The notes under the pieces were generated by a model. The model saw only the letters and a list, made by a program, of their open reading frames with translations. It had not been told where the DNA came from and made no database searches. A program made the translations under genes and the position numbers. A stretch of 64,000 nucleotides of DNA. It comes from an uncultured Clostridia bacterium. Its GTDB lineage: Bacteria; Bacillota; Clostridia; Oscillospirales; Acutalibacteraceae. Location of the stretch: NCBI GenBank assembly GCA_945876745.1, contig CAMCPL010000007.1, forward strand, positions 1 through 64,000, read 5' to 3'. This document shows, piece by piece, positions 13,759-38,859 of this stretch (the stretch's first letter is position 1; the number at the start of each line of letters is the position of its first letter).

Positions 13759-13787
13759 ATTATACTACAATTAAAACTATTCGTCAA
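13759..13787 (-). promoter_or_regulatory. Promoter of tRNA-Leu
   Basis: Minus-strand TTGACG and TATAAT with a 17-base spacing, starting about 20 bases upstream of the mature tRNA 5' end. The -35 hexamer lies inside the last codons of the gene at 13777-14043. Confidence 0.75.
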
Positions 13788-14043
13788 GTAGTTCGTTTTG
13801 TTTTAATTCAAAAATGAAATTCTCGACTGCCTGCCTTGCAGTAGCTTCGTCAATGGAATATTGCTCAATAACTTTTTGTGTTACCTTGTCAACAGTTGTG
13901 TCCTTTTCAAGGCATTTCCAAATATACTGCGCAGTTTCATTTAGTGTAATCATTCCGTTAAACTGCTTCGACCTTTCGCCGACTGCTACGGCAAGTATTT
14001 TGTCACCGATTTTTCTTGTTACAAATCCTTCTTTAATTTTCAT
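13777..14043 (-). CDS. PqqD-family peptide-recognition protein (orphan)
   Basis: An 88-residue protein. MKIKEGFVTRKIGDKILAV, NGMITLNETAQYIWKCLEK and a C-terminal helical part (ATARQAVENFIFELKQNELLDE, quoted in part) match the PqqD/RRE winged-helix fold, which in RiPP pathways holds the leader peptide for a modifying enzyme. No radical SAM maturase, precursor peptide or protease is adjacent. It lies 11 bp downstream of a Gfo/Idh oxidoreductase and is probably co-transcribed with it. Such solitary PqqD-like proteins also occur in Firmicutes polysaccharide and sactipeptide loci; its role here is unknown. Confidence 0.75.
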   Translation of the reverse strand: MKIKEGFVTRKIGDKILAVAVGERSKQFNGMITLNETAQYIWKCLEKDTTVDKVTQKVIEQYSIDEATARQAVENFIFELKQNELLDE

Positions 14044-14054
14044 ATCTTCTCCGT

Positions 14055-15365: not shown

Positions 15366-15435
15366 TTCGCAACACCTCTTTTATATCCGTCTACATTATA
15401 TCATAATATTACTTCATTTCAAGATTTTTTTATGT

Positions 15436-15463
15436 TTGACTTATATTTTTTTTGTTGTATAAT
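15436..15463 (+). promoter_or_regulatory. Promoter of the ABC exporter operon
   Basis: TTGACT (15436-15441) and TATAAT (15458-15463) are 16 bases apart, about 30 bases upstream of the first exporter gene. Confidence 0.65.
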
Positions 15464-15493
15464 ATTTCTAATATTTGTTATTATAGGTGACTT

Positions 15494-17215: not shown

Positions 17216-18965
17216 TAAAGAAATTATCAAGCGAATTTTCTCTTATGTAAAACGGTATAATGCTTTGATGATATTTTCGCTTTTGCTCTCAGTTGTCAGC
17301 GTTGCCGGTGCACTGTATATACCTGTACTCGTCGGTAGGGCAATAGACTTAATTGTTGACAGCGGCGCCGTTTACTTTGATAATATTTTTCCGATACTGA
17401 TAAAAATTGCGGTCATTGTTGCAGTAACTGCCGTATGTCAATGGATAATGAATGTACTGAATAATAAGATTACCTTCGGCGTTGTTCGTGATATGCGTGA
17501 TAAGGCTTTTTCAAAGCTCGAAAGACTGCCTGTATCGTATATTGACAGTCATCCCGGCGGTGATATTGTATCAAGAGTAATTGCAGACGCCGACCAGTTT
17601 GCCGACGGTCTTTTAATGGGATTTACCCAATTTTTCAGCGGCATAATTACAATTATCGGAACGCTCGCATTTATGCTTTCAATCAATTTGTGGATAACGC
17701 TTGTTGTAGTTCTTATCACGCCTCTTTCGTTTTTTATTGCTTCGTTTGTAGCAAAGAAAACTCATACGATGTTCAGGCTTCAGTCCGAAACAAGAGGAAA
17801 GCAAACGGCGTTTATAGACGAAATGATCGGTAACGCTAAAACAGTAAAAGCGTATTCCCACGCTGATGAAAATATAAAGCAGTTTGATGAAATTAATGAG
17901 CATTTACGAGGCTATTCGCTTCGTGCCGTTTTCTTTTCGTCAATAACAAATCCTGCAACAAGATTTGTAAATGCCGTTGTTTACGCAGGTGTTGCGCTTT
18001 TCGGTGCTATGCTTGCCGTAAAAACAAATCAAGCAGAAATTTCTGTCGGCGTTCTCGCTTCTTTTTTGGCTTATGCAAATCAGTATACAAAGCCGTTTAA
18101 CGAAATATCGGGAGTTATTACCGAGCTTCAAAATGCATTCACCTGCGCAGGCAGACTGTTTGAGCTTTTGGAGGAAGAAGAAATACCTGCTGACAGCGAA
18201 AGTTCAAAAGAATTGAAAAATGTCGACGGAAAATTAGAACTTGTTGACGTTAGCTTTTCGTATGACAAAAATAAAACGCTTATTAAGGATTTTAACCTTT
18301 GCGTAAAGCCCGGTCAGCGTATTGCTATTGTCGGTCCGACAGGCTGCGGAAAAACAACGCTTATAAATCTTCTTATGAGGTTTTACGATATTGATAGCGG
18401 AAAAATCATTCTTGATGGTTTTGATTATAGGGACATCAAGCGTAAAGCTCTTCGTGAAAACTTCGGTATGGTGCTTCAAGATACTTGGCTGAAATCGGGA
18501 ACCGTAAGGGATAACATAAAAATGGGTATGCCTAACGCAACCGATGAACAGGTAATTGAGGCGGCGAAAAAAGCACATTCCCATTCATTTATAAAACGAC
18601 TGCCTAACGGTTATGACACGGTTATCGGTGAGGACGGCGGCTCGCTTTCACAGGGGCAAAAGCAGCTTTTGTGTATCACACGTCTTATGCTTTGTAAACC
18701 GCCGATGCTCATTCTTGACGAAGCAACCTCCTCAATTGATACGAGAACGGAGATAAAAATTCAAAAGGCTTTTGAATCGCTTATGCAGGGCAGAACAACA
18801 TTTATTGTTGCTCACCGACTTGCAACGATAAAAAATGCCGACGTTATTCTTGTTATGAAAAACGGAAATATAGTTGAACAGGGAAGTCACAACGAGCTCC
18901 TTGTCAAAAAAGGCTTTTATTACACACTTTATAATTCACAGTTTCCGTCAGCAAAATATAATTAA
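17208..18965 (+). CDS. ABC exporter half-transporter B (catalytic site)
   Basis: A 585-residue partner of the preceding half-transporter. ATG 17208 is preceded by AGGAGG inside the previous gene; a frame continuing upstream is only overlap. The nucleotide-binding domain has Walker A GPTGCGKTT, signature LSQGQKQLL (one substitution from LSGGQ) and canonical Walker B LILDEATSSID, so this subunit supplies the catalytic glutamate. Six membrane helices precede it. The tightly overlapping pair indicates an obligate heterodimer. Confidence 0.9.
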   Translation: MNNKEIIKRIFSYVKRYNALMIFSLLLSVVSVAGALYIPVLVGRAIDLIVDSGAVYFDNIFPILIKIAVIVAVTAVCQWIMNVLNNKITFGVVRDMRDKAFSKLERLPVSYIDSHPGGDIVSRVIADADQFADGLLMGFTQFFSGIITIIGTLAFMLSINLWITLVVVLITPLSFFIASFVAKKTHTMFRLQSETRGKQTAFIDEMIGNAKTVKAYSHADENIKQFDEINEHLRGYSLRAVFFSSITNPATRFVNAVVYAGVALFGAMLAVKTNQAEISVGVLASFLAYANQYTKPFNEISGVITELQNAFTCAGRLFELLEEEEIPADSESSKELKNVDGKLELVDVSFSYDKNKTLIKDFNLCVKPGQRIAIVGPTGCGKTTLINLLMRFYDIDSGKIILDGFDYRDIKRKALRENFGMVLQDTWLKSGTVRDNIKMGMPNATDEQVIEAAKKAHSHSFIKRLPNGYDTVIGEDGGSLSQGQKQLLCITRLMLCKPPMLILDEATSSIDTRTEIKIQKAFESLMQGRTTFIVAHRLATIKNADVILVMKNGNIVEQGSHNELLVKKGFYYTLYNSQFPSAKYN

Positions 18966-23947: not shown

Positions 23948-24013
23948 AGACTCTTTATTTATTCAAAGTTTTGTGTTAATATATATTTGAATAAATTTTT
24001 AGGAATGAAAAAT

Positions 24014-24946
24014 ATGCCGATTTTTGATTTAGCGATTGAATTTAAGTTTAGATATTTGCGAAATTTGGGAAATACAATTGTAGATTTCTTCTCGCAGGTT
24101 AAGGGATTGTTTGCAACCTTTGGCGTTGTTGATGCGGTTGATATTATTTTTGTTGCCGTTATAGTGTTTTTTATCGTAAGGGTAATTCGTGAAACGAGAG
24201 CAATGCAGCTCATAAAGGGTCTTTTGTTTTTGCTGTTCTTTTATATCGTTGTAAACTTCTTCGGCCTCGGTGCAACGAGCTATATAATGCGCACAATTTT
24301 CAGCAATATTCTTATTATTCTTGTAATTCTGTTCGGACCCGAAATACGAAATATTCTTGAACAAATGGGAATAGGAAACTATCGTAAGGTGTTTATGAAT
24401 ATCTTTAATTCGGGTGTAGCCGTTGATATAGCCGATATGAAAAAGACTATCGACGCTGTTTGTAAGGCATGCGCCGAAATGTCCGACGATAATATCGGTG
24501 CGCTTATCGTGTTTGAAAATGATACACTTTTGGGCGATATTGTAAAAAGCGGAACGATAATCGACGGTAAATGTACAAAGGAGCTTTTGGGAAATATCTT
24601 TTATCCTAAGTCTCCGCTTCACGACGGCGCTATGGTTATACGTAAAGACAGCATTTATGCCGCAGGCTGTATTTTGCCGCTGACTAATAATAACGATTTG
24701 TCCTCAAAGTTAGGAACGCGTCACCGTGCGGCTCTCGGCATAACCGAGCAGAGTGACGCACTTGCGATTGTTGTAAGCGAGGAAACCGGTGCTATCAGCT
24801 ACGCCTTATGCGGTACGCTGTATCAGGACGTTTCAACAGGCGACCTTCGTGATGTTCTTACTCAACAATACATTCCGACAGGCGGCTCGTCCGACGAAAA
24901 GATTATATCAAAAATTGCAAGGAGGTTTAAGAATAATGATAAATAA
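24014..24946 (+). CDS. cdaA: Diadenylate cyclase CdaA
   Basis: A 310-residue membrane cyclase that makes c-di-AMP from two ATP. Three N-terminal helices (about residues 35-110) precede the DAC domain with SPLHDGAMVI and GTRHRAALGITE, the catalytic DGA and RHR motifs. The start at 24014 (MPIFDLAIEF) is favoured by AGGA at 24000-24003; in-frame codons at 23987 and 24005 are less well placed. It overlaps cdaR by 11 bp, the conserved cdaA-cdaR order; the usual third gene glmM is missing. Confidence 0.95.
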   Translation: MPIFDLAIEFKFRYLRNLGNTIVDFFSQVKGLFATFGVVDAVDIIFVAVIVFFIVRVIRETRAMQLIKGLLFLLFFYIVVNFFGLGATSYIMRTIFSNILIILVILFGPEIRNILEQMGIGNYRKVFMNIFNSGVAVDIADMKKTIDAVCKACAEMSDDNIGALIVFENDTLLGDIVKSGTIIDGKCTKELLGNIFYPKSPLHDGAMVIRKDSIYAAGCILPLTNNNDLSSKLGTRHRAALGITEQSDALAIVVSEETGAISYALCGTLYQDVSTGDLRDVLTQQYIPTGGSSDEKIISKIARRFKNNDK

Positions 24947-26234
24947 GAATGAAACTTCTTCCTCTGAAGCAAAGAAAGCTAAAAAGACATTCTCTTTTTC
25001 CAACCTTGTATATAATGATAAATATTTAATAATACTTTCTGTTGTTGTTGCAGTTCTCGTCTGGATATTCGCTTCCTTGAGCGTCGGTACTGACGAAACT
25101 AAAACCATTAAAGTAGATGTGCCTATCAAGCTCGGTGACTCTGTTTCCGAACAGCTCGGTATGCAGTATTATTCCTTGCAGGATACCGTTGAGCTTACTG
25201 TTTCCGTTACCGGTGCAAAATATGTTGTAGGTCAGGTGACGGAAAACGATTTGGATATTTCCTTTGATACCTCGGCTGTAAATAGGGTAGGAGATCATAC
25301 AATTCCTATTATTGTAAATAATAAATCGAAGTCGCTTGATTTTACCGTTGACTCCGTTTATCCAAAAACAATTGACGGATATTTTGACGTTAACAGTGAA
25401 AAGACCTTTGACGTTGTTCTCAATTATGATTCAACTAATGTTGCCCAGGGCTACGCTTTCGGCAATCCCGTTTTGAATGAGGATAAGGTTGTTGTTTCCG
25501 GTCCGAAAACATATATAGAAAAAATTACCGAAGTTTATTGCGATATTGACTTCGGCGACAAAGCAGATTTGACCGAAACCTTTACACAGGATTGCGAAAT
25601 TCGTTTTGACGGTGACAGTATCGTGAATAATTTCTTGACCGTCACATCACGAACAGATAAAGAAAAGCCTATAAAGAATATAAACGTTACCTTGCCTGTG
25701 CTTAAAAAGGTCGTTTTACCTGTAACCTCGTCGTTTGAGGATAAGCCGCAGGGCTTGCCTGACGGAATTGTCAGCGTTTCGTATTCCGTTAATAATGTCG
25801 GTGCCGGCGTACTGCCGTCTGCCGATATCGCTTCGGCTAATATCGGAAAAATTTATTTCAATAGCCTGACAGTCGGTACACAGTCCTTTGACTTTTCAAC
25901 CGACGCGCTAAACGGTATAACCGTCCTCGACGGAACAAAAACCATTACCGCAACTGTCACCGTAAGCTCGCATTATACCGAACAAACTGTTAATATCTCA
26001 AGAGATAAGGTTGTTATTGAGGGCGCTCCTGAGGGCTCTGATTTGAGCGTAAGCTATCTTGACGATGCAACCGTAACCGTTCTTGCACCGAAAGGTACAA
26101 CGCTGACAGCCGAAGATTTGATTGTAAAATGTGACGTTTCAAAAACCGCCGCAGATAATAAATACCCGCTTAATATAACTGTTACAAATAACGAATGTTG
26201 GGTATACGGCAAATATACTGCTGTAGTAAAATAA
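24936..26234 (+). CDS. cdaR: CdaR, YbbR-domain regulator of CdaA
   Basis: A 432-residue protein. After AGGAGG the ATG at 24936 (MINKNETSSS) opens the frame. A single membrane helix (about residues 28-50, YLIILSVVVAVLVWIFAS) is followed by three to four extracytoplasmic YbbR beta domains. In B. subtilis and Listeria CdaR binds CdaA in the membrane and modulates c-di-AMP synthesis. Overlap with cdaA indicates translational coupling. Confidence 0.92.
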   Translation: MINKNETSSSEAKKAKKTFSFSNLVYNDKYLIILSVVVAVLVWIFASLSVGTDETKTIKVDVPIKLGDSVSEQLGMQYYSLQDTVELTVSVTGAKYVVGQVTENDLDISFDTSAVNRVGDHTIPIIVNNKSKSLDFTVDSVYPKTIDGYFDVNSEKTFDVVLNYDSTNVAQGYAFGNPVLNEDKVVVSGPKTYIEKITEVYCDIDFGDKADLTETFTQDCEIRFDGDSIVNNFLTVTSRTDKEKPIKNINVTLPVLKKVVLPVTSSFEDKPQGLPDGIVSVSYSVNNVGAGVLPSADIASANIGKIYFNSLTVGTQSFDFSTDALNGITVLDGTKTITATVTVSSHYTEQTVNISRDKVVIEGAPEGSDLSVSYLDDATVTVLAPKGTTLTAEDLIVKCDVSKTAADNKYPLNITVTNNECWVYGKYTAVVK

Positions 26235-26260
26235 TATAGCTTATATATTGTCTTGAACAT

Positions 26261-26295
26261 TAGGCTCCCCTTTATGACATTAAAAGGGGAGCCTA
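26261..26295 (+). terminator. Terminator of cdaAR, also part of a dispersed repeat
   Basis: Perfect 13-bp stem TAGGCTCCCCTTT / AAAGGGGAGCCTA. The same GGCTCCCCTTTTAATG / CATTAAGGGGAG type of palindrome recurs at about 26782-26815 and 31764-31792, so the terminator is supplied by a repeat family. Confidence 0.65.
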
Positions 26296-26398
26296 TGTTG
26301 GTTAAAACAGCGTTCCGTCTTAAAATATTAGGCTCCCATTGATTTGAGTATCAAGGGGAGCTGTCACGCAACTGCGTGACTGAGGGGATAAAAGACAG

Positions 26399-26494
26399 TG
26401 GAGTTTTGCACAAAGTGCAAAGTGAAGTTGCACAAAGCGCAGTGAAGTATTGCAACGAGTTGCAAAGTGAAGTTTGCCTTCGGCAAGATGAGGT
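26399..26494. repeat. Array of GTGAAGT linkers alternating with different small hairpins
   Basis: GTGGAGT/GTGAAGT occurs at 26399, 26422, 26442 and 26467, then GATGAGGT at 26487. Between them lie four unrelated palindromes: TTTGCACAAAGTGCAAA, TGCACAAAGCGCA, TTGCAACGAGTTGCAA and TTGCCTTCGGCAA. The linker is conserved while the stems change but keep pairing. A shorter version is at 31276-31335. Confidence 0.75.
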
Positions 26495-26553
26495 TTGAGT
26501 GATTGTTATAGAATCCCTCCGACTTTTTGAACAGAGCGTTCTTTCAACAAACT

Positions 26554-26742
26554 AAGGCTCCTTTGTTAAAGGGAGCTGTCACGCCACTGCGTGACTGAGG
26601 GATTCATTCGGACGATTGATAATCGTCCCTACGGTAGTTTTAGCATTTACGAAGTCGTTTCATTTGTTGGACATCTCGTAGGGACGAGCATTGCTCGTCC
26701 GATTTGGTTAATGATGAATTGAATCTCTCCACCGCAAGCGGT
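26554..26742 (+). repeat. 189-bp direct repeat, left copy
   Basis: The segment from AAGGCTCCTTTG to ACCGCAAGCGGT matches 31514-31702 without any length change (constant offset of 4960 bp) and with only scattered substitutions. It includes a GGGAGCTGTCACG..TGACTGAGGG unit and the two-palindrome unit. Confidence 0.85.
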
Positions 26743-26901
26743 TTTGTCCTTTTATCCCCTCAGTCGCAAATGCGCCAGCTCCCCTTAATAACATTAAAAG
26801 GGGAGCCTTTATTGGTTAAAACAGTGTTCCGTCTTGAACATCAAGCCTCCATTGTTAAAGGGAGGTGGCACGGCTTTGCCGTGACGGAGGGATTCAATAT
26901 T

Positions 26902-26976
26902 GGAACACCGAGGACGGTGTTCCCTACGAATCGTTGAAATAACACACCGTAGGGAACGCTGTCCTCGGCGTTCCTC
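26902..26976 (-). repeat. 75-bp inverted repeat, left copy
   Basis: GGAACACCGAGGACGGTGTTCC ... GGAACGCTGTCCTCGGCGTTCC (each half a palindrome, abbreviated) is the reverse complement of 31345-31418 with few differences. The pair brackets the whole module from 27107 to 31262. Confidence 0.8.
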
Positions 26977-27106
26977 AAAATATAATCCCCATATCACTTC
27001 TTTTATCTTTTCTCACTTCTCTTTTCACTCGGCGAAGCCGAACATCACGTACAATGTGCATTTTTTATACAAATGTTAAAATTTGTTAAATTTTTTTGAA
27101 TTTTTA

Positions 27107-27136
27107 TTGACTAATATTGTTATTATGTACTATAAT
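27107..27136 (+). promoter_or_regulatory. Promoter of the 1247-residue surface protein
   Basis: TTGACT (27107-27112) and TATAAT (27131-27136) with 18-base spacing. The leader to the ATG is about 155 bases; I found no known riboswitch in it. Confidence 0.7.
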
Positions 27137-27300
27137 GGCAATGTATATAAATGGGTATTTGCGCCTATTCGGCTATATTTTGTAGTCGAAAACCGTATTG
27201 GTAAAGATTAAACACAATATCCAGTGGTCAGATACGGCGAACGGTAGCATAATCCCGTTGTACAATTATATGGAAATAATTTATTCAAGGGGGAAATTCA

Positions 27301-30300
27301 ATGAAAAAATTATTCAAAAAATCAATTTCTTGCATTGTTGCTGTTTTAATGGTGTTATCCTCAATGCCTTTTACAGCATTAACAGCAAATGCAGCTCTTG
27401 TAAAACAAGATATTGCCGTATGGGATGCAGCTAATGTTACTACCGCTACTCCGGGTACCGGTACAAAGTTTACTCATACCGACTCAAGCACTAATGTATC
27501 CATCAATGGTGTGCACTGGGGCTCTGCAAGCAAGGCTGACGGCAATGGCTATGTAACATTTAATAATGCAACTCTTTCTTCCGAAGCAGGCTTCGCTTCC
27601 CTTAACATCAAGGGTGATGTTTGGACATTTTCATCAAAGTTTGCTACAACAGGTTCAGGACTGGATGATCAAAATACACAGCAAACAACAAACGATAATT
27701 CAACAATCTTCGGTATCGGTACTGCAACTACTCGTAACTATTCTCCTTCAGGTGCAGTAAAAACATCGGGTATGGCTGCCGACCTCGTAAATATTACAAA
27801 GAACGGTAATATTTATCTTGCAGGCTCTTCCACATCCTCAGGTACTGTTGCAAACGTTCTTTCTTCAAGTGCCGATGATGCGAAAATTCTTACTGTAGCA
27901 TATGACAATGGTAACCTTACCATTTCGCTCGACGGAACAACTGCTTATACAGGAACTGTTGATACTGCATTGTTCTCACAGGGCGTTTCAAACTTCTTTA
28001 TCGGTACATCTGCACAGGTATACGCAGGCGGTAAAGCTCCGTACTATGGACTTACAAACGACGGTTATTACACATATGGTACACACCTTTATTCATTAAG
28101 CGCTTCTGTTTCATATGATCCGACTAATGTACCACCGAGTGCTAATGCTACCACTGTAAAGACTGCATTAGATAATGATACATATAAGACAACATACAGT
28201 GACTACACAAATTCAAGCCTTACAAACACAACCGGCTATATGCAGGGTATTATTAAAGCTACTTCATGGCAAAATGTTGATACACAATTTACTTTTGAGG
28301 CTAGTAATACTGATACAATCAGAATGCATACTCTTGAAAATGCCGTTGGCGTCTATACAGGTGCAGGAAGTGTAGTATTCCCAATAGTTTTAGAGCATGT
28401 TAAGACTGCGAACGGCACTAATATTGAAAGAAATATTGGTTTTGACCATGTATCCCTTAATAATGGCGGTAATTTCGCATTTGGTAATTCTACTTGGAAG
28501 AGATGTAACAGTTATACTGATTGGGGCGATAACTCAGATAATACACACGACTTCTCTTCATTGTCTAACGGAAATGTTGCTCGTGACGAAAGCTCCGGAA
28601 ACGGTAGATTTGGTGTAAATGAACAAAAGCTTTGGAAAAATAATATCACCTATTCCGGTACAATTAGCGATTCAACATACTACGATGAGCTTTCATCTGC
28701 AACACTTAATTTACAGGCTGACTACACAATCCACTGGAGAAATAATAGGTGGGATAGCTGGAAATGGTCTAATGCTTCTAACTTCAATACTAATATAAAT
28801 ACAAATTCATCAATGTATGTTATAAACTTTGCTCCGTTGAAAAACATTATGACATCAAATGAATTTGAAAGCAATTTCTATAATATCTATAACAACCGTG
28901 CGAAGTACAATGAAACAGAAAGAGAAAACTACTTCAGTGTTATGGCTGACATCGTGAATTTCGATCTTTCAACAAAAACTATGACAACTGAAAATGAAGT
29001 TTCTGCTGTTGCTAGGGAAATTAAGGGTTTGGTTGATAGATATAATCAGTATAAGTCACCTACATCACTTGGCAACACTGTTACATTCGTTAATGCAAGC
29101 GGTTCTACCATAGAATCAAGATTTGTTCAAAACGGTAATGCAATCGGTGCTTTCCCGGAGAATACAGGTGTTGTTAGAGGTGATTTTGATAATCACTACA
29201 CTTATACATGGGACACAACATTAACTCCTGAATCAACTGTTGATTCAGATATTACAATTAGAGAAAAAGAGAACGGTGCTCACTGTTCGGGCGGTACTGC
29301 TACCTGTGTAAACAGGGCAATATGCTCTGTATGCGGAAATCAATATGGTTCCGTAAATGCAAATAATCACATAAATACAAGAACAGTTGATGCAAAGGCT
29401 TCAACCTGTACCGAAGCAGGTTGGGAAGCATATACCTATTGCGATGATTGTAACAAAGTAGTAGGCGAAAAGGTTGACCTTCCGCTTGCAAGACACGATT
29501 ATGAAGTGACAAAGAAAGACGATACGTATCATACTTATAATTGTAAGAATTGTACCGACTCATACGATGAAGCTCACGATTGGGGTGAGTATGTTGTAAC
29601 AACTCCTGCTACATGTACAGGAAATGCAGTAGAAACTGCAACATGTACGGTAGCCGGTTGCGGTGCTACAACTTCAAGAGAAGTTGCAGATACTGCACTC
29701 GATCATGATTATCAGTATGCAGAGCTTGACGCAGACAACCATACTGTTACTTGCTCAAGATGTGATTATTCAGCTCAAGCACCACATAGATTTGACGAGA
29801 ACAACACTTGTACAGACTGTGGATATGTAAAAGTAACTATCGACACAACTGCTTATGACAACGCAGTTGCAGAGTACGAAGAAATCATCGGTGCAGGCGA
29901 CTATGCAGAAAAGTATACCGAAGCGTCAAGAACAGCTTATCAAGAAGCAGTTGAAGCAGCAAAGAGAGACAGCTTTGCTACAAAGGAAGAGGTTGACGCA
30001 GCAGTTGCCGCAATTCTTTCGGCAAAGACAAAGCTTGTTTATGCAAAGGCTGATGTAAATGTTTATATTGCTCGTGAGGGCGTAGAGCCTGTATTAGTTG
30101 AAACAATATCCAAGAATTACGGTGAAACCGCTGATATTAACGTTGCTGATAAACTTTCAGCAGGCGAGCAAATTTTAAAGTGGGTTATCGAAACTCAAGA
30201 TACAAAGGTAAACACAAAACTTGCCACAACAGATACAACAGTATCTATGGTTGTAACAGAACCTGCTGACGTATATGTTCATATTGCAACTGAAAAATCA

Positions 30301-31044
30301 ACCGAAGCAGTACAGTACAGCAAGGTATCGTTCATCAGTAAGAACGGCGCTGTATCGTTTGTAAAGTATGTACCAGCAGGCACAACGCTTTATACAAATA
30401 CAGTTGACGGTGTTGAAATTCCGTTCTATGAATTTAAGAATTGGGATAAAGCCAGCGTAACGGCAGACGGCAACGACATTGAGGTTAAGGCTGTTTACGA
30501 GTTCATCGGAACAGTAGACGACAAGTGCAACGTACACTACGAAGGTTTTGAAAACGGCGTAAAGGAATATACATACGACAGTTTTGTATATCTCTTCGGC
30601 GCAGAGGATAAGACGCTTGCTCTTTCAACCGATGGAACAGTAGAAAATATTATCACATATCTCAATGAGAACGCATTCTATGCACCTCATACGAAAGATA
30701 TTTATGTAATCGTGGTTGACTCACAGCAGCCTTCAATCGGTATTACCGGTTCATACGCAAGCTCAACAGATACTAAGAAGACTGCTGCATTCAACTGTAA
30801 GTTCTTCTTACCTGCGGGTTGCACAGTAGTTGAGTACGGCTTGACTGCAACATCATCAACAGGAAAGAGCATAAAGATAAAGGCTGAAGCAGCTTCCGCA
30901 AGAGGCGAGTATTGCGTTAAGGTATCGATGGATAAGACATCAACAGTAACTTCTGTTGAAGGCGTTGCATACCTGACATACATGGACGCAGACAACAATC
31001 TTCAAACAATTCATTCAACATCTGTAACACAGAATCTTCTTTAA
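27301..31044 (+). CDS. Large secreted modular surface protein
   Basis: A 1247-residue protein. The signal peptide MKKLFKKSISCIVAVLMVLS... ends near TANA (about residue 31). Residues 35-270 look like a concanavalin-type lectin/LamG-like beta domain (Asn/Thr/Ser-rich). Residues 300-640 are a second beta-rich region without recognised family. Residues 660-845 carry four or so CxxC units (CVNRAICSVCG, TYCDDC, YNCKNC, CSRCDY, CTDCGY), a zinc-ribbon-like repeat frequent in Ruminococcaceae surface proteins. A FIVAR-type three-helix module (846-915) and InlB-like beta segments (to ~1090) follow. No LPXTG, dockerin or S-layer anchor is visible, so attachment is unexplained. It shares a transcript with a 54-residue peptide gene. 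Confidence 0.85.
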   Translation: MKKLFKKSISCIVAVLMVLSSMPFTALTANAALVKQDIAVWDAANVTTATPGTGTKFTHTDSSTNVSINGVHWGSASKADGNGYVTFNNATLSSEAGFASLNIKGDVWTFSSKFATTGSGLDDQNTQQTTNDNSTIFGIGTATTRNYSPSGAVKTSGMAADLVNITKNGNIYLAGSSTSSGTVANVLSSSADDAKILTVAYDNGNLTISLDGTTAYTGTVDTALFSQGVSNFFIGTSAQVYAGGKAPYYGLTNDGYYTYGTHLYSLSASVSYDPTNVPPSANATTVKTALDNDTYKTTYSDYTNSSLTNTTGYMQGIIKATSWQNVDTQFTFEASNTDTIRMHTLENAVGVYTGAGSVVFPIVLEHVKTANGTNIERNIGFDHVSLNNGGNFAFGNSTWKRCNSYTDWGDNSDNTHDFSSLSNGNVARDESSGNGRFGVNEQKLWKNNITYSGTISDSTYYDELSSATLNLQADYTIHWRNNRWDSWKWSNASNFNTNINTNSSMYVINFAPLKNIMTSNEFESNFYNIYNNRAKYNETERENYFSVMADIVNFDLSTKTMTTENEVSAVAREIKGLVDRYNQYKSPTSLGNTVTFVNASGSTIESRFVQNGNAIGAFPENTGVVRGDFDNHYTYTWDTTLTPESTVDSDITIREKENGAHCSGGTATCVNRAICSVCGNQYGSVNANNHINTRTVDAKASTCTEAGWEAYTYCDDCNKVVGEKVDLPLARHDYEVTKKDDTYHTYNCKNCTDSYDEAHDWGEYVVTTPATCTGNAVETATCTVAGCGATTSREVADTALDHDYQYAELDADNHTVTCSRCDYSAQAPHRFDENNTCTDCGYVKVTIDTTAYDNAVAEYEEIIGAGDYAEKYTEASRTAYQEAVEAAKRDSFATKEEVDAAVAAILSAKTKLVYAKADVNVYIAREGVEPVLVETISKNYGETADINVADKLSAGEQILKWVIETQDTKVNTKLATTDTTVSMVVTEPADVYVHIATEKSTEAVQYSKVSFISKNGAVSFVKYVPAGTTLYTNTVDGVEIPFYEFKNWDKASVTADGNDIEVKAVYEFIGTVDDKCNVHYEGFENGVKEYTYDSFVYLFGAEDKTLALSTDGTVENIITYLNENAFYAPHTKDIYVIVVDSQQPSIGITGSYASSTDTKKTAAFNCKFFLPAGCTVVEYGLTATSSTGKSIKIKAEAASARGEYCVKVSMDKTSTVTSVEGVAYLTYMDADNNLQTIHSTSVTQNLL

Positions 31045-31064
31045 TCGAATGGGAGGACAAATAA

Positions 31065-31229
31065 ATGACAAAATTTGAAGCACCTGAGATTAAGGTGGTA
31101 ATGTTTAGAACGCAGGATATTGCAACAGCAGGATCATCGGGCGGTTACGAGGAATTCAAAACCGAGATAAATACCGGTTGGTCATACAATACAGTACAGG
31201 GCGGCGCAGACGGCGACTTCCCATTGTAA
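31065..31229 (+). CDS. Small 54-residue peptide, possible precursor or surface-associated peptide
   Basis: A clear GGGAGG ribosome site and ATG at 31065, 20 bp after the surface-protein stop, open a frame for a 54-residue acidic, Gly-rich peptide. It begins MTKFEAPEIKVVMFRTQDIA and continues TAGSSGGYEEFKTEINTGW to ...GGADGDFPL. The pattern 'K-[YF]-E-x-P-x-[IM]-x-[VI]-x-x-F-x-x-x-D-[IV]-x-T-[AS]-G' followed by a Gly/Asp/Ser-rich tail resembles short uncharacterised peptides encoded in many gut Clostridia. There is no signal peptide and no cysteine. A terminator follows at once. It could be a RiPP-like precursor, but no maturase is adjacent. Confidence 0.75.
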   Translation: MTKFEAPEIKVVMFRTQDIATAGSSGGYEEFKTEINTGWSYNTVQGGADGDFPL

Positions 31230-31239
31230 ACAAAAAATT

Positions 31240-31262
31240 GCTCTCGGCATTTTGCCGAGAGC
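31240..31262 (+). terminator. Terminator of the surface-protein/peptide operon
   Basis: Perfect 10-bp stem GCTCTCGGCA / TGCCGAGAGC with a TTT loop and a T5 tract, 11 bases after the peptide stop codon. Confidence 0.9.
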
Positions 31263-31344
31263 CTTTTTGTTTACAGTGAAGTTTTTCACAAGGTGCAAAG
31301 TGAAGTTTGCCTACGTCAAGATGAGGTTTGGGTGATTGTATTTT

Positions 31345-31418
31345 GAGGAACGCCGAGGACAGCGTTCCCTACGGTGTGTTATTTCAAAGTTCGTAGGGAA
31401 CACCGTCCTCGGTGTTGC
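31345..31418 (+). repeat. 75-bp inverted repeat, right copy
   Basis: Reverse complement of 26902-26976 with few differences; each half is itself a palindrome (GAACGCCGAGGACAGCGTTC and GGAACACCGTCCTCGGTGTT). Confidence 0.8.
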
Positions 31419-31513
31419 GATATTGAATCCCTCCGTCTTTTTGCAAGCAAAAAGCCACCTCCCTTTGACAAGGGAGGCATATTTTTCAAGACGAAACGCT
31501 GTTTTAACCAATA

Positions 31514-31702
31514 AAGGCTCCTTTGTTAAAGGGAGCTGTCACGCCACTGCGTGACTGAGGGATTCATTCGGACGATTGATAATCGTCCCTACGGTAGTTT
31601 TAACATTTACGAAGTCTTTTCGTTTGTGCGATATCTCGTAGGGACGAGCATTGCTCGTCCGATTTTGATAATAATGAATTGAATCTCTCCACCGCAAGCG
31701 GT
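31514..31702 (+). repeat. 189-bp direct repeat, right copy
   Basis: Matches 26554-26742 in the same orientation at a constant offset of 4960 bp. Confidence 0.85.
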
Positions 31703-32019
31703 CCCCCTCTCTTTGACAAGAGAGGCTTTGTTGGTTAAAACAGCGGTCCGTCGTGAAATATTAGGCTCCCCTTTTAATGTCATTAAGGGGAGCTGGCACG
31801 AAGTGACTGAGGGGATAAAAGCTCGTTTCGCTCGCAGAGAAAAGGTAAGTGAGAAGAGATAAAAGAAGTGGTTTTTTGATTATATTTTTTCGGACGATTG
31901 ATAATCGTCCCTACGGTAGTCTTAATATTTACGAAGTCGTTTCGTTTGTGCCACATCCCGTTCGTTTATCGCCTTTTAGTTTTTTAATATTACAAATATA
32001 CAAATGTGTAATAAGCATA

Positions 32020-32049
32020 TTGCTTTTTAATTAATCAAAATGTTATAAT
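32020..32049 (+). promoter_or_regulatory. Promoter of the 2249-residue surface protein
   Basis: TTGCTT (32020-32025) and TATAAT (32044-32049) with 18-base spacing, about 60 bases before the start codon. Confidence 0.6.
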
Positions 32050-32109
32050 TATGTTGGTTTAATACTACTTTATATTGTAATGTTGCAATATTCCCTCGGA
32101 GGTCTGATT

Positions 32110-35100
32110 ATGAAAAAGAAAAAGAAATTTATATCTTTATTGCTATCAGTGCTTATAGCCTTGACATCAAGCTGTTTTTCGTTTTTTGCATATGCGGTAA
32201 CCGATTTCAGCAATGATTACACTTTGCAAATTTATTATTACGATGCGAATAATGAATTTGTTGAAGTAACCGAACAGGTTCAGGTAATGGAGCAGTATGA
32301 TGTACAGTTATACGCCTGTCTTGTTTATTCCGACGGCACGGTTTGGGATATGACGACTTCCGGTATGCCAATTGGTCTTGAGGGATATACTGTTGATTGG
32401 ACGTCCGATGCGAGATATCTTGCATTTTGCGAAAATAACGACGGTAATGTTCACGGTTACGACGCAACAAAGGGCGAAGCAATCCGTAATTGGATAAAAA
32501 ACGAGGTCGGCACTATTCCTGTTGTCGGCGAGTCGCTTGCAAACGCAATACTTAATATGCTTGAAAACGGCGCTTATGATATTGACGATTTGGACACAGA
32601 GGATGTAACGAAGATTTTGTCGGGCTTGCTTGCAACAATGGGTCTTTCCGAATACGAGGAGCAGCTCACCGCCTCATTAAAGGCATATCTCGACAAATAC
32701 GACGTCGGCATCACTGCAACACTAAAGGACAGTGAGGGTAACGCTGTTGCCGCCGATACGGTGAGAGTTCTTGTCTTAAAGAGTGATGCGCTTTTGTCGG
32801 ACGTTATTCCCAACGCGGCTTTTATAAAGAATTACGACGATATTCCGCGCAAGGTTGCAGTAGGCTACGAAATGGATTTAGAAGGAATTATTACTCCTGT
32901 TCGTACTCATTATACCTGTACCTGGACTGTAACGGGCGAGCTCGGAATTTTAGCAAGCGAGCTTGCGACTGTTGACGAAAACGGTCATTTTACTGCACTC
33001 AAGGAGGGAACCGTCCAGGTTAAGGTTTCGCCCGACGTAGAGGGTATGACGCAAAAGCTGACCGACGCATTCAATGCGCTTGCCGCCGCAGGTGAGCTTG
33101 CCGACAACGAATCTATCGCCAAGGCTATTCTTCTCATTCTCGGAATTAAGTCGGATTCCGACGATTATTCAACTCTTTTGGCGATTATCAATGCCGTACT
33201 TGAAAGTGGTGTTGATGTAAACGGTGTTATTGAGTTTAGCCAGGAGAATCTTACACCGCTTGTTAACTTTATTTTGTATGTGATTTATCAGGACTCTGTT
33301 ACTATCGAAATTGTATCTCCCGGTGCAATACCGATTGAATCCTTTGAGGTTGCCGGTACTACGGATATTACTGAGGGCGAGACCTCTGAATTTTCTATTG
33401 TAAACGTTATGCCAAAGGGTGCTGTTGCACACGATTATAAGGTAAGTATTGAAAATGAGGAATACGCCGTACAAACCGAGAAAAACGGTCTTACCGTTTT
33501 AGGTATCGACGGTTCGACATGGAACAACAACTACGTTACTCCGAACAAGACAAATCTTGTTGTAAATATGGAGGGCTTGACTGTAAAAACACAGCTTTCG
33601 ATTTACGGCAAGAGTAATAAAAAGGTTGTTTACATAAAAATCGGGTGTGATGAATATTTACCGATTGACGAGCTTGTCAACGTTAACGCAGCAACGTACC
33701 CGAAGCGACTATCTGCAAGCCTTTCCTACGGCTGGCTTAACGATGACGGCACATATAATCTTGCTACTGCGGATCAGCCTGCATATACTCCGGACGGTTA
33801 CAGCTATGTTACTGCCGACGGCGTTTTATATGCAACAGGGTGTACGGTAAATCAGCTTGTTGTTGTCGAAGCAAACGGCGCAGTCGCTACGAAGCAGATT
33901 ATGTCGGGTATTCAAACGACCGGCGTTGAGTTTACAAAAAAGCATTTCTGGCTCAAGGTCAACAGCGGTGCAGTATCAACCGGTATCAGAGGAAGCGTTT
34001 GCGAAATGTATGCAAATATTTTGCCTGCTGACGCTTCGTTTAACGAGCTTACCTTTACAAGCGATGATACCGAAAGTGTCATTTTGTCCGCTATTCCGCT
34101 TACCACCTCTCAATACACGAGCGCCGCACTTACAAAGGAACGAAGAGCAAAATACGCAAGTGCGACCGTTACGTGCGATGAAAACGGTATGGCTACCGTG
34201 TATGCGTATGCAATCGGAAATACATCTTGTTTTGCAAATGTTAAGGTAACTACTCAAACAGGCGGCTTTGAAGCGTGGGCAACAGTCGCTTTTGCCAATA
34301 TTTCCGTCGTTGACGTAACAATTACTTCGGCAGAAGACGAGCTTTATCTTCAAGAGGACGGAACGTATCTTATAACGGCAGGTGATACTGTTAATTTCAA
34401 TGCGCTTGTTTATTTAAGTCAAACAGGCTCATGGAAGGATCAAGGTTTTGAGGATGTTGAGTGGAGTGTTTCCGACGAAAGGTACGGCACAATAACGGAT
34501 GCCGGTATATTCAAGGGAATAGAGGTTGGATATGTTGACGTAACTGCAACCTCCGTATTCGGCGAGATTTCCGATACGGTTACTGTCAGAGTTTTACCGA
34601 ATTACACCGAGCTTAAAAAAGCAATTGCAGAATGTGATTACGAAAATCTTGACCCATACGATTGGTCTGTTGCAAGCTGGAATGTGTTTGATGCCTTGTA
34701 TCAAGAGGCAGTAACAAAAATCGCAGGAAATCTGTTTAATTCACAACAAGAGGTAGACGACCTTACTGTCGAGCTTCGTAATGCGTTTAACGGTCTTGTT
34801 AGATATATGCCGCTTGAAGCGCTTGAAATATACTGTGCCGACGATGCTGACGGTAACGGTTTTGCAACGATTTCCGTTTCTGCTTTGTCGAACTACACTA
34901 ATTATTCAACTACGATTGTTCCGACTGTATATCCGTTTGAAGCAGAGGATTATGAGGTTGTATTTACTTCAAGTGACACTTCAAAAATTGTTGTTGACTC
35001 TCACGGTGTTGTAAAGCCTGTTTCCTCATCAGACGCGGGCTGGGGCAAAATAACGGTAAGCGTAACTGACCCCAAGAATTACAACGTTTTTACTAAAGAA

Positions 35101-38100
35101 TTATATGTTGCTTTTGCAAAACATCAGGTTACAAGTGTTTCTGTTTCACCGACAACGCTGAATTTTGTCGGCGTTGGAGAATTTGCTGAAACCCCAAGTG
35201 CAATAATTACTCCAAAATATAACACTTCATCTTCGGTAACCTCTGCTTCTATTAAGCACGGATTCTTTGTTTCAAGTGATGAAAGCGTTGCAACAGTTGA
35301 TTCAAACGGTACCGTTTTACCTGTAAACAAGGGAAGCTGTGTCATAACCTTCTATTCGTATGACGGCGGTTATACTGCTCAAACGAGCGTCAGCGTTACA
35401 ACAAACAAGAAAGTGCTTGAAGCCGCAATTAACACGGCTGAAAGTCTTGTTGAAGAATTTTATACTGAAGATACTTATGCCGTTGTTATGGAGTCGCTTG
35501 TAACCGCTAAACAGATATTTGAAAACGAGGACTCAACGCAGGATGAAATCAATGCCGCCGCACAGTCGCTCAATGACGCACTCGGTAAGCTTGAGAAAAA
35601 TCCGTATGCCAATGTATATCTTTCGGCAGGTGAGGGCGGTAAGGTAGTTTACGATAACGTGGAATATACAGGCGATAATAATCAAGTTCGTGTTCTTATT
35701 GAAAACGGCTTGAGCGTTAGTGCCGTTGCTGATGACGGATATCACTTCGTAAAGTGGGTTGACAATAACGGAAATACTTTGTCAACTAATGCAACAGAAA
35801 TTTTCACGATTGATTATTCTGCTCATTTTAAGGCGGTATTTGAAAAGGTTAATTCCGTTACAGGCGTAAAAGTTTTTGTTAATGGACAGGATACCGAGTT
35901 TTATACAAAGGACGTAGCAACTTTGTCAACGTATACGAGCCAGTCTGTAAAGATTTCGTATTCTGTAACACCTGCTGACGCAAATTTCTATACCGCTGAA
36001 TATTCGCTTTCAAACGGTGATTTGAAAATCAGTTCCGACACAGTTTCACCGTCTTCAAATAATGCTTGCTACGCTTTATTGACTGTTACTGTAACAAATA
36101 CAATAACCGGTGCACAGTTTACCGACAGCGTTTATATAGCTTTTGCGAAGCACCCGATTGGATCTGTTTCGGCAAATGTAAGCTCACTTGTTTTTAATGG
36201 CGAAAATTCAGATGCACAAACCGTTTCAATAACATATAATTCGTCTGACAGCTCGTCTGCATCTCTTAAAAAAGGTATGTTTGTTTCTCACGATGCGTCG
36301 ATTGCGCAGGTTGATTCAAACGGTGTTGTAACGCCTGCTTCAATAGGCAACACGACTGTTGAGTTTATCAGCTTCGACGGCGGTCATAGGGCGTTTGTTG
36401 AGGTAAAGGTATATGCCGATAAATCTGTTTTATCAACACTGATTAATCAAGCAAACAGCGTGGTTGAAAAGAATTTCACACCCGAAAGCTATGCTTCAAT
36501 GCAGGAAGCATTAAGCTATGCGAATGAAATATATTCGTTAGAATACGCTTCTCAGCAGGATGTTGATATTGCCGCAGAAAATTTAGAGGTTGCACTTAAT
36601 TCTCTTGTAAAGATGGATATGGTTGACCTTTCGATTAATATCGAGGGCAATGGTTACATTTACTACGGTGAAGATGTTATTTCTCAAAATACGGTATTGT
36701 CTGTTAAAAACGGTGAAGCAATTGAGCTTTCGGCTCAACCTGATGATGATAATCAATTTGAGGGCTGGTATAATCAAGACGGTAGTTTGATTACTGTTAA
36801 TCCCGATTATACAGTATCTGTTGACGGATTTGTTTCTCTTACTGCAAAATTTACTCCTATTGTTTATGTTCAAAGTGTAGAGATAACCGTAAACGGAGAA
36901 AGTGTAGAGCGTAAGCATTTGAATGTCGGTACTGTTGCGAATTATTCAAAGCAGTCAGCCGAAATAGGTTATATTGTAAATCCGTCTAATCCGACAGGCT
37001 ATTTTGTAAGATATTATCTTGGCACGGATTGCTACAACTTAACTCTTGATTCAACCACCATTCACCCGACGGAAAACGAAATTGCATACGGTACCGTTTA
37101 TGTAAGTATAACAGATTTGAATTCGGGTAAGGTGTTTACTGACAGCGTTTCGCTCGCGTTTTCAAAATATCACGTTACAGGTGTTAAGGCTTCGACTAAC
37201 GAACTGATATTTAACGGCGAAAATTCAGCGGGTCAGAATGTTGACATTGAATACAGTTCATCTTCTGTGATTTACAATGCGTCTGTAAGAAGGGGATATG
37301 TTGTTGTTGAAAACAACGATATTGCAAGCGCTTCGACTGTAATCGGCGATAACGGAAGCTATGTAATCGTTATTCCTAAAGCAATCGGTTCAACTTATGC
37401 TACGTTTTATTCATATGACGGTGATTATTCCTGTACGTTTAGTATCAAGGTTTATGCGGATAAATCGGCTCTTTTGCAGGCTCTCGATGTTGCAAATTCA
37501 CTTAACGGTGAGGATTATACCGAAGAGACTTTCTCCTCCTTGCCGCCTGTGATTGATTACGTAACTCAAATTTACAGTACCGAATATGCTACTCAAGATG
37601 ACGTCGATTTGGCAACATCCTCTCTAAATGAGGTTATGTCTACTCTTGTATTACGAGATCTTGTTAGTGTTAACGCTGTAAGCGGTGATAACGGAAATGT
37701 AAGTATAAACGGCGAAGACGTATCTAATGTAAAGATTATGAGAGGGGAAGCCGTTACTCTTAAGGCTGTTGCAGATAAAGATTATATGTTTGACGGTTGG
37801 TATGAAAACGGAGAAAAGATAAGCTCGGAGTCTGTATATACTTTCAATGCTGAAAAGGCTGTGTCGCTTATTGCGAAGTTCGTTGAGATTCCTTATATTA
37901 CAAGGGTAGCTATCACCTATGACGGCGTTGAAACCGATTTTGCACAGGTAAGTGTTTCAAGTCTCGGAAAGTATACTAATTACAGCGCTTCCTTCGGAGT
38001 TAATGTATATCCCGAAAATGCAGATTACACTATAATAGGATACAGTATTGAGGATGTTAATAACAATTTGAGTATTTCTTCTAATACCGTTAAGCCGTCT

Positions 38101-38859
38101 TCAAACAATCCTGCTTACGGTAAAGTAGTTGTAAGTATTCAGGATAACTATTCAGGAAAGATTTATAAAGACGTAATTTACCCGTCATTTGCAAAGGTTC
38201 AAGTACAATCCGTCAGCGTAAGTCCGACTTCGTTGAGCTTTGATACTCCGTCGTCGCCGAGTGCAAATATCTCTGCTTCGTACAAGGGCTCAACGTTGAT
38301 TTCTACACCTAATATCAAATCCGGATTTTTTGTAAGCACTAACGAAAATGTTGCAAGTGTAAACAACGTCGGAACGGTTACGCCAAAGGGCAAGGGAAGC
38401 TGTGAAATTATTTTCTATGCGTATGACGGTGGCGCTCAGGCTTCGACAAGCGTTACCGTTAAAGCTCTTGATACAGTATGCGGCAGAATTGTTGCAATGA
38501 TTTCACCGGATGCTGATTACGGAGAAATAGGTGTCGAAAATGCAGTTGTTACAATAGGTAACGATTCTGCAACTACTGACAGTAACGGTTGCTTTACGAT
38601 TAGTATTTCGGATAATTCGGTTAATACTGCTGTGATAACTTATTCTCACGGTATAACAAGAAATATTGATATTACAAACGCAGGAGCCGATATCGGAACT
38701 ATTGCAATTGTTGCCTGTGACGGCGTTAAGGATGGAAAGATTAACGCCAAGGATTATGCATATTTTATGAAGAATAATGCGAGCGACGATATGCTTCAAA
38801 TCGTAAATAATTTCTATGGATTCAACGTTTACACAACTGATTTTTATGATAATTTTTAA
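32110..38859 (+). CDS. Giant repetitive surface protein (Ig-like/FIVAR/InlB repeats, dockerin-like end)
   Basis: A 2249-residue secreted protein starting at ATG 32110 after CGGAGG. A signal peptide (MKKKKKFISLLLSVLIAL..., cleavage near AYA, ~29) is followed by Big_2-type Ig-like domains to ~835 and a first FIVAR-like helical module (~836-895). Four cassettes of about 340 residues follow (897-1247, 1247-1585, 1585-1927, 1927-2122). Each has a pair of Ig-like domains sharing YVAFAKHQVTSVSVSPTTL-like and GFFVSSDESVATVDSNGTV-like stretches; the first three add a FIVAR module and an InlB-like FxGWY/FVKWV repeat. The end (2122-2249) is a beta-sandwich of the carboxypeptidase-regulatory type plus one EF-hand-like DGVKDGKINAKDYAYF. 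No LPXTG is present. Likely a carbohydrate- or matrix-binding adhesin. Confidence 0.88.
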   Translation: MKKKKKFISLLLSVLIALTSSCFSFFAYAVTDFSNDYTLQIYYYDANNEFVEVTEQVQVMEQYDVQLYACLVYSDGTVWDMTTSGMPIGLEGYTVDWTSDARYLAFCENNDGNVHGYDATKGEAIRNWIKNEVGTIPVVGESLANAILNMLENGAYDIDDLDTEDVTKILSGLLATMGLSEYEEQLTASLKAYLDKYDVGITATLKDSEGNAVAADTVRVLVLKSDALLSDVIPNAAFIKNYDDIPRKVAVGYEMDLEGIITPVRTHYTCTWTVTGELGILASELATVDENGHFTALKEGTVQVKVSPDVEGMTQKLTDAFNALAAAGELADNESIAKAILLILGIKSDSDDYSTLLAIINAVLESGVDVNGVIEFSQENLTPLVNFILYVIYQDSVTIEIVSPGAIPIESFEVAGTTDITEGETSEFSIVNVMPKGAVAHDYKVSIENEEYAVQTEKNGLTVLGIDGSTWNNNYVTPNKTNLVVNMEGLTVKTQLSIYGKSNKKVVYIKIGCDEYLPIDELVNVNAATYPKRLSASLSYGWLNDDGTYNLATADQPAYTPDGYSYVTADGVLYATGCTVNQLVVVEANGAVATKQIMSGIQTTGVEFTKKHFWLKVNSGAVSTGIRGSVCEMYANILPADASFNELTFTSDDTESVILSAIPLTTSQYTSAALTKERRAKYASATVTCDENGMATVYAYAIGNTSCFANVKVTTQTGGFEAWATVAFANISVVDVTITSAEDELYLQEDGTYLITAGDTVNFNALVYLSQTGSWKDQGFEDVEWSVSDERYGTITDAGIFKGIEVGYVDVTATSVFGEISDTVTVRVLPNYTELKKAIAECDYENLDPYDWSVASWNVFDALYQEAVTKIAGNLFNSQQEVDDLTVELRNAFNGLVRYMPLEALEIYCADDADGNGFATISVSALSNYTNYSTTIVPTVYPFEAEDYEVVFTSSDTSKIVVDSHGVVKPVSSSDAGWGKITVSVTDPKNYNVFTKELYVAFAKHQVTSVSVSPTTLNFVGVGEFAETPSAIITPKYNTSSSVTSASIKHGFFVSSDESVATVDSNGTVLPVNKGSCVITFYSYDGGYTAQTSVSVTTNKKVLEAAINTAESLVEEFYTEDTYAVVMESLVTAKQIFENEDSTQDEINAAAQSLNDALGKLEKNPYANVYLSAGEGGKVVYDNVEYTGDNNQVRVLIENGLSVSAVADDGYHFVKWVDNNGNTLSTNATEIFTIDYSAHFKAVFEKVNSVTGVKVFVNGQDTEFYTKDVATLSTYTSQSVKISYSVTPADANFYTAEYSLSNGDLKISSDTVSPSSNNACYALLTVTVTNTITGAQFTDSVYIAFAKHPIGSVSANVSSLVFNGENSDAQTVSITYNSSDSSSASLKKGMFVSHDASIAQVDSNGVVTPASIGNTTVEFISFDGGHRAFVEVKVYADKSVLSTLINQANSVVEKNFTPESYASMQEALSYANEIYSLEYASQQDVDIAAENLEVALNSLVKMDMVDLSINIEGNGYIYYGEDVISQNTVLSVKNGEAIELSAQPDDDNQFEGWYNQDGSLITVNPDYTVSVDGFVSLTAKFTPIVYVQSVEITVNGESVERKHLNVGTVANYSKQSAEIGYIVNPSNPTGYFVRYYLGTDCYNLTLDSTTIHPTENEIAYGTVYVSITDLNSGKVFTDSVSLAFSKYHVTGVKASTNELIFNGENSAGQNVDIEYSSSSVIYNASVRRGYVVVENNDIASASTVIGDNGSYVIVIPKAIGSTYATFYSYDGDYSCTFSIKVYADKSALLQALDVANSLNGEDYTEETFSSLPPVIDYVTQIYSTEYATQDDVDLATSSLNEVMSTLVLRDLVSVNAVSGDNGNVSINGEDVSNVKIMRGEAVTLKAVADKDYMFDGWYENGEKISSESVYTFNAEKAVSLIAKFVEIPYITRVAITYDGVETDFAQVSVSSLGKYTNYSASFGVNVYPENADYTIIGYSIEDVNNNLSISSNTVKPSSNNPAYGKVVVSIQDNYSGKIYKDVIYPSFAKVQVQSVSVSPTSLSFDTPSSPSANISASYKGSTLISTPNIKSGFFVSTNENVASVNNVGTVTPKGKGSCEIIFYAYDGGAQASTSVTVKALDTVCGRIVAMISPDADYGEIGVENAVVTIGNDSATTDSNGCFTISISDNSVNTAVITYSHGITRNIDITNAGADIGTIAIVACDGVKDGKINAKDYAYFMKNNASDDMLQIVNNFYGFNVYTTDFYDNF

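Follow-up and report, generated by a model that had tools for sequence, protein, structure and literature searches.

The window, a stretch of 64,000 nucleotides from an uncultured Clostridia bacterium, contains at positions 31065-31229 of the + strand a small ORF whose translation is MTKFEAPEIKVVMFRTQDIATAGSSGGYEEFKTEINTGWSYNTVQGGADGDFPL, a peptide of 54 amino acids and, as an earlier note on this DNA had remarked, without a single cysteine. It follows, after a gap of 20 nucleotides, the stop of a giant ORF (27301-31044) whose start, MKKLFKKSISCIVAVLMVLSSMPFTALTANA, is judged by eye to be a Sec-type signal peptide. The features of interest are the following.

13777..14043, strand -: 88-aa protein of the PqqD family (a discrete RRE), candidate leader-binding protein; PF05402, E 2e-16
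27107..27136, strand +: promoter-like site 5' of the giant gene, 11 of 12 consensus matches; consensus match only
27301..31044, strand +: secreted partner protein of 1247 aa; ORF, no Pfam family at E <= 1e-3
31051..31056, strand +: ribosome-binding site GGGAGG, 8 nt 5' of the ATG; sequence
31065..31229, strand +: precursor-like peptide of 54 aa; ORF, translation, homologues and family profile
31065..31127, strand +: predicted leader, residues 1-21 (FEAPEIKVVMF..DIAT); near-invariance in 15 aligned homologues, logo of 195 anchored relatives
31134..31139, strand +: Ser24-Ser25, predicted phosphorylation region; alignment and logo
31155..31181, strand +: variable tail segment, residues 31-39; alignment of close homologues
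31240..31262, scored on both strands: terminator-like hairpin of 10 pairs with a T run; consensus scan

The exact end of the predicted leader, like the putative cut site, is placed solely by analogy with the linear polyphosphorylated peptides (LPP) discussed in the last section.

The peptide gene and its surroundings

That the 54 codons form a real gene, with a ribosome site and a terminator of its own, is confirmed. The ORF goes beyond chance, since it has homologues and since the family motif, found once in the window, is found in none of 100 codon-shuffled windows. The two signals that the earlier note had attributed to the gene are both in place, the second being terminator-like by the scan. 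There are 13 full-length homologues, 76-91% identical to the window peptide, and a partial fourteenth. Residues 1-29 and the final 15 residues are common to the close homologues, and residues 31-39 differ among them both in length and in sequence; after T21, the window peptide reads A22 G23 S24 S25.

The earlier note also claimed that the peptide gene is co-transcribed with the giant gene, and we can call this likely only: a consensus scan of positions 26200-32200 finds no promoter-like or terminator-like site on the + strand in the gap between the two, and one promoter-like site precedes the giant gene, but such sites, 16 in the scanned region against 16.8 in shuffles, are not enriched.

The gap 3' of the peptide gene looks as if it were built from repeats. 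The palindrome GGACGAGCATTGCTCGTCC has identical copies at positions 1920-1938, 26682-26700 and 31642-31660 of the window, and none in 100 shuffles; a second repeat lies at 26846, 31458 and 31706. Farther along, positions 32080-38859 encode a secreted protein of 2259 amino acids with Big_2, Flg_new_2 and FIVAR domains, behind which the profile search finds no peptide; its C-terminal end, DGKINAKDYAYF, we take to be dockerin-like. On the other side, at 23987-26234, lie a CdaA-type diadenylate cyclase and then a YbbR protein, which are a usual gene pair.

The peptide family and its secreted partners

Neither the window peptide nor the relatives that were scanned have a family name in Pfam or NCBIfam, and a literature search on the peptide family gave no match. 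The close homologues were turned into a profile and compared with 80 genomes of the genus: the front half of the peptide recurs there with different tails. Widening the alignment (A2, A3) brings the count to 715 proteins at E <= 1 among 927 candidates; among the best 120 listed, the few with a name at the source are called 'hypothetical protein'. The similar short peptides that the earlier note mentioned are indeed numerous; the check that it proposed, a profile built from homologues together with a table of neighbours, turned up both a conserved family and a recurrent neighbourhood. Judged by sequence, the window peptide belongs to a large family that has no name and whose members combine a conserved front with a short acidic tail.

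The front follows the pattern YxxPE..V..F..EDVITTSG, with alternating hydrophobic residues after YxxP. In percentages, the logo reads Y88/F12 xxP E77 [LIMF] E52 [VI]93 xx F75 xx E68 D92 [VI]91 I80 T86 [TA]84 S92 G58, on 195 of 201 distinct peptides anchored on Pro, the six without the motif being dropped; as the anchor is [YFW]xxP or a near variant, the values for Y/F and P are partly so by construction. The window peptide has FEAP at this place. Sixteen residues after the proline (P+16), 92% of 194 relatives have a serine, and the window peptide has a glycine, followed by serines at P+17 and P+18. What follows is a short tail with much Gly, Asp, Glu, Asn, Thr and Pro; the tails are negatively charged in 96% of cases and vary strongly between relatives. 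A version of about 136 amino acids, with a similar front and a long tail ending in YYENYWQ or YYDQYWQ, occurs in loci L029 (match 1501-1557) and L055 (near 1483).

Within the genus, 69 of the 80 genomes have a peptide match (A3, E <= 0.01), with up to 18 matches per genome; at the level of the family, 65 of 300 genomes and 35 of 135 genera have one (A3, E <= 1e-3). A scan of named genomes gave 178 relatives, and the best 80 of these include records of Ruminococcus flavefaciens, Roseburia, Agathobacter and Lachnospiraceae.

Most often, a gene of this peptide family is preceded by that of a secreted protein, the signal peptide being called by a simple hydropathy rule. For 44 of the 90 distinct peptides of the fetched loci, a same-strand ORF bearing a signal peptide ends at most 250 bp upstream, and one of these ORFs (L029, 389 aa, six hydrophobic segments) resembles a chance neighbour; for the others, the upstream ORF leaves the locus in 23 cases and is of another kind in 9, there is none in 10, and 4 peptides are at an edge. 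When only loci longer than 5 kb are considered, 42 of the 57 peptides that could be scored (14 run-offs being taken off 71) lie behind a protein that has a signal peptide and no fewer than 350 amino acids, against 31 of 726 other genes of the same loci, an odds ratio of 63: the link with a secreted protein, which the earlier note had proposed for the window, holds family-wide. Tandem peptides share a partner, and counting each distinct upstream place once yields 35 of 49, or 25 of 36 with the loci fetched for a PqqD gene left out. The rule is passed by 39 of the 95 peptides of a separate named set, the rest being 12 run-offs, 27 with another ORF, 13 with none and 4 at an edge; some of the 27 also begin like signal peptides, and were missed by the rule or by its length limit. 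In both sets, a median of about 20 nt separates the peptide gene from the upstream ORF.

The window's own genome has at least eight peptides, seven found by profile and an eighth at L140:17690. Six, including that of the window, sit behind a signal-peptide protein, with a spacing of 12-20 nt in five cases and 86 nt in one; the copy on contig C12 is preceded by sequence given as N, and no such protein precedes the copy at C3:212794. None of the six partners has a Pfam family at E <= 1e-3. A toxin-immunity pair was considered and rejected: the conserved part of the peptide is its front, and no toxin domain is seen in these six partners.

Does the tail of a peptide follow the C-terminus of its partner? 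The partial correlation is 0.04-0.06, with p 0.12-0.16 (55 pairs; 41 after thinning): the tails do not co-vary with the partner ends. The earlier note had also suggested a tethered signal or a chaperone for the surface protein, and no finding here demonstrates either function. This absence, together with the high variability of the tails, would suit an LPP-like peptide with a job of its own, in signalling or as a toxin, and with no tie to the secreted protein beyond a common promoter. We hold that possible though rather doubtful, given that the pairing recurs in many genera, with partners of different C-terminal types, and above the level of control genes.

Tail copying between peptide and partner was rejected as a general rule (permutation p 0.06), with one striking case: in locus L145 (7996-9402, strand -), the secreted protein ends in EGWSDWWTPEY, and KGWSDWWTPEF closes the first of the peptides that follow, a shared tail GWSDWWTPE[FY]. 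Small lipoprotein-like ORFs with a low-complexity body are found near the peptide at L065:7495-7929, on the opposite strand from it, L068:8011-8421 and L139:8333-8728; two of them end in DTPFIPVD and TTPIVPIG, with a slight likeness to the peptide tails STPYIPIP and GVPINF.

Enzyme genes near the relatives and in the window's own genome

Locus L068 was the first to show genes for a P-loop protein and a PqqD protein behind a secreted protein and a peptide. Fifteen loci were read gene by gene: L068, L085 and L088, which are peptide hits, and L116, L117 and L141-L150. All 15 have a PqqD-type RRE gene close to the peptide, the last twelve having been fetched for this closeness (the PqqD genes of L085, L116, L142 and L143 are placed by coordinates from PqqD genome searches, and the peptides of L116, L146, L147 and L149 come from the upstream-ORF survey of fetched loci). 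The gene of the P-loop protein, an HprK-fold kinase, is present in 13 loci (all but L116 and L150), that of an S24/S26 protein, a SipW-like peptidase, in 11, that of an MsbA-like ABC exporter in 8, and NTP_transf_5, by Pfam, in 2 (L144 and L150). The usual order is secreted protein, peptide or peptides, P-loop protein of 240 amino acids, ABC exporter, PqqD, and S24/S26 protein of 150 amino acids; in L150, the peptide gene is divergent from the enzyme genes. Loci L068 and L117 also have, about 4-5 kb before the peptide, an ORF of 394-395 amino acids whose start resembles NTP_transf_5 proteins.

Pfam assigns the P-loop protein to no family above cut-off. A model of the kinase of the window's own genome (pLDDT 92.7) has its best fold matches in HPr kinase/phosphorylase (HprK/P) and PEPCK; the kinase profile compared with PDB sequences gives nothing significant (best E 0.13; PEPCK 0.41, HPr kinase 0.64), and a plasmid search with the kinase gives three matches, all partial and with less than 80% query coverage. 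The S24/S26 proteins match signal peptidase I models of the archaeal/SipW type below cut-off, and their fold weakly matches SipA and LexA-type folds (best E 1.6e-3). An alignment of nine of them has invariant S25, H64 and D79 in the numbering of the protein from the window's own genome; in their pattern these correspond to S29, H68 and D93 of the LPP peptidase LppS, a match that does not come from aligning the two.

In a sample chosen by the peptide alone, 80 loci from named genomes with 95 peptides, 23 peptides have at least one RRE, kinase or peptidase gene no more than 5 kb away on their own strand, and 15 have all three; the other 72 have no machinery gene within 5 kb, some loci being cut short. 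This figure, as well as the strong pairing with secreted proteins, is what one would see if the peptide stayed unmodified in the cytoplasm, as a chaperone or regulator of the preceding secreted protein, with the RRE and the kinase serving other substrates. Such a role would leave the RiPP-type clustering and the co-occurrence with the RRE unexplained, and the conserved part of the peptide is leader-like (YxxP, alternating hydrophobics) with a short, acidic and variable tail; we consider it quite unlikely.

The co-occurrence is seen at several levels. With thresholds of E <= 1e-6 for PqqD and E <= 1e-3 for the peptide, PqqD is present in 63 of the 65 peptide-bearing genomes of the family against 96 of the 235 others (300 genomes, Fisher p 2e-18), the two exceptions being G286 and G334, 87% and 86% complete; counted by genus, it is present in 35 of 35 peptide-bearing genera against 50 of 100 others (p 5e-9). 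This presence is not specific, because PqqD also serves other RiPP systems. Among the 80 genomes of the window's genus, 70 have the RRE, 63 the HprK-like kinase, 65 the SipW-like peptidase and 69 the peptide; the ten that lack PqqD also lack peptide, kinase and peptidase, and the peptide is present in 69 of the 70 with PqqD. The one left, G053, is positive for RRE, kinase and peptidase and yields no peptide match at E <= 0.01. Seven further genomes have PqqD and peptide without a kinase match, three of them more than 90% complete (G025, G035 and G038), and five have the peptide without a peptidase match, two of them more than 90% complete (G020 and G038). On a LepA tree of 75 genomes, the absences form one clade of seven and two or three single cases; as they amount to 3-4 events, the genus alone is no independent phylogenetic test.

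The five gene types (RRE, kinase, peptidase, exporter and NTP_transf_5) all occur in the genome that the window comes from, spread over separate loci. There are three PqqD genes: one on contig C2, one on contig C6 adjoining the gene of an NTP_transf_5 protein, and that of the window at 13777-14043, which at 17 kb is the candidate gene nearest to the window peptide. A single gene encodes an HprK-like kinase (contig C10, E 1.3e-83), and a single one a SipW-like peptidase (contig C6, E 9.9e-37), directly followed by an ABC exporter with 42-48% identity to the cluster exporters. The two ABC exporters of the window (15494-18965), with only 22-28% identity, were rejected as LPP exporters. At 13777-18965, the PqqD gene lies behind a Gfo/Idh oxidoreductase gene and is divergent from these two exporters, a block that recurs in L121 and L128.

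Known systems and candidate explanations

The closest likeness that we found is with LPP (genes LppA, K, B, S, D and N), a RiPP family described by Popov et al. (Nat Commun 2026, PMC13381572). According to its main text, the genes encode an RRE, an HprK-like kinase, an NTP transferase, a SipW-like peptidase and an MsbA-like exporter; precursors of 35-200 amino acids are conserved at the front and vary at the C-terminus; the kinase adds up to four phosphates to core Ser3; the peptidase LppS, which requires Ser/His/Asp, cleaves after Thr-1 with the assistance of the RRE; and the clusters, found in 80 of 9173 complete Bacilli genomes, lie beside capsule genes with one to three precursors each, the role of the peptides being given as unknown (PMC13381572).

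Our family has the same five types of enzyme and transport genes, down to the Ser/His/Asp of the peptidase, and a precursor with a variable tail and a conserved serine just past the leader region; its leader mostly carries YxxP in relatives anchored on that very motif, and FEAP in the window peptide. It differs in the second half of the leader (YxxPxVLxHQxIxFETxxS in LPP, YxxPE[LIMF]E[VI]xxFx[VI]EDVITTSG here), in its hosts (records labelled Ruminococcus, Oscillospiraceae and Lachnospiraceae, against Bacilli), and in having many precursors per genome, often remote from the enzymes and usually behind a secreted-protein gene. Because of the different second half, and because no enzyme cluster lies beside the gene, we call the window peptide LPP-like rather than LPP. 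The main text of PMC13381572 mentions neither Clostridia, Ruminococc or Lachnospir, which supplementary lists may do, nor surface protein, secreted protein, adhesin, orphan or in trans. Set against that text, the undescribed system announced by the earlier note is undescribed in part: the type of machinery has been known since 2026, and the pairing with secreted proteins is new.

Other systems are more distant. SynChlorMet ScmC and ScmD (NCBIfam TIGR04249 and TIGR04248) are weakly matched by the kinase-like and PqqD-like proteins, with scores far under the curated cut-offs, and a double-glycine leader was rejected, as its hydrophobic spacing does not fit by eye. Paeninodin-like lasso peptides, as far as PMC7533575 is used here, share the RRE, the HPr-kinase-like and nucleotidyltransferase accessory genes and a [Y/W]xxPxL leader. 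The best NCBIfam matches of the PqqD proteins, that of the window included, are likewise lasso PqqD models, though under their cut-offs. That the window peptide is, or once was, the precursor of a lasso peptide is nevertheless very improbable: the loci have a SipW-like peptidase, inspection of the ORFs listed around the clusters brought up neither a macrolactam cyclase nor a B2 protease, and the tails have no constant ring spacing by eye.

The RiPP-type precursor, one of the suggestions of the earlier note, is thus well supported by relatives that lie near an RRE gene, and mostly near kinase, peptidase and exporter genes, and by the same gene types in the own genome. Going one step further, we think it probable that the window peptide is the precursor of an LPP-like system acting in trans. 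The conserved front would be a leader, bound by a small PqqD-type RRE protein; the predicted HprK-like kinase would phosphorylate a serine, Ser24 or Ser25, and the predicted SipW-like peptidase would remove the leader by a cut near residues 20-21, both places being set by analogy with LPP; and the predicted ABC exporter would release the tail outside. The scattered enzymes of the own genome would act on the window peptide from a distance, and the mature peptide, made together with its partner protein, may work with it outside the cell. Several observations count against this reading: in the subfamily of the window, the RRE-binding motif begins with F instead of Y, and a glycine stands where 92% have a serine; no enzyme gene lies beside the window peptide, as one does for its relatives at the 15 loci; 72 of the 95 peptides of the named sample have no machinery gene within 5 kb; some genomes of the genus have the peptide without a kinase or peptidase match; PqqD is not specific; and the fold match of the peptidase is weak. 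Our confidence is also slightly lowered because 12 of those loci were picked for their RRE.

If a trans-acting system is the right reading, a class of modified peptides that was described only recently would become tied to secreted proteins. A bolder conjecture, which we regard as unlikely, is that each of the Clostridia of gut and rumen has one central but scattered RiPP machine for an entire set of short peptides, every one of them produced along with a giant secreted protein of its own; the exported phospho- or phosphoglyco-peptide would be the dedicated surface adaptor that attaches its giant partner to the envelope; if true, this would be a new way to assemble surface proteins, and a first biological role for LPP-type peptides. 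A genus in which the peptide is common, and in which it comes with the machinery and with a recurrent secreted partner, makes the function of LPP-type peptides directly testable.
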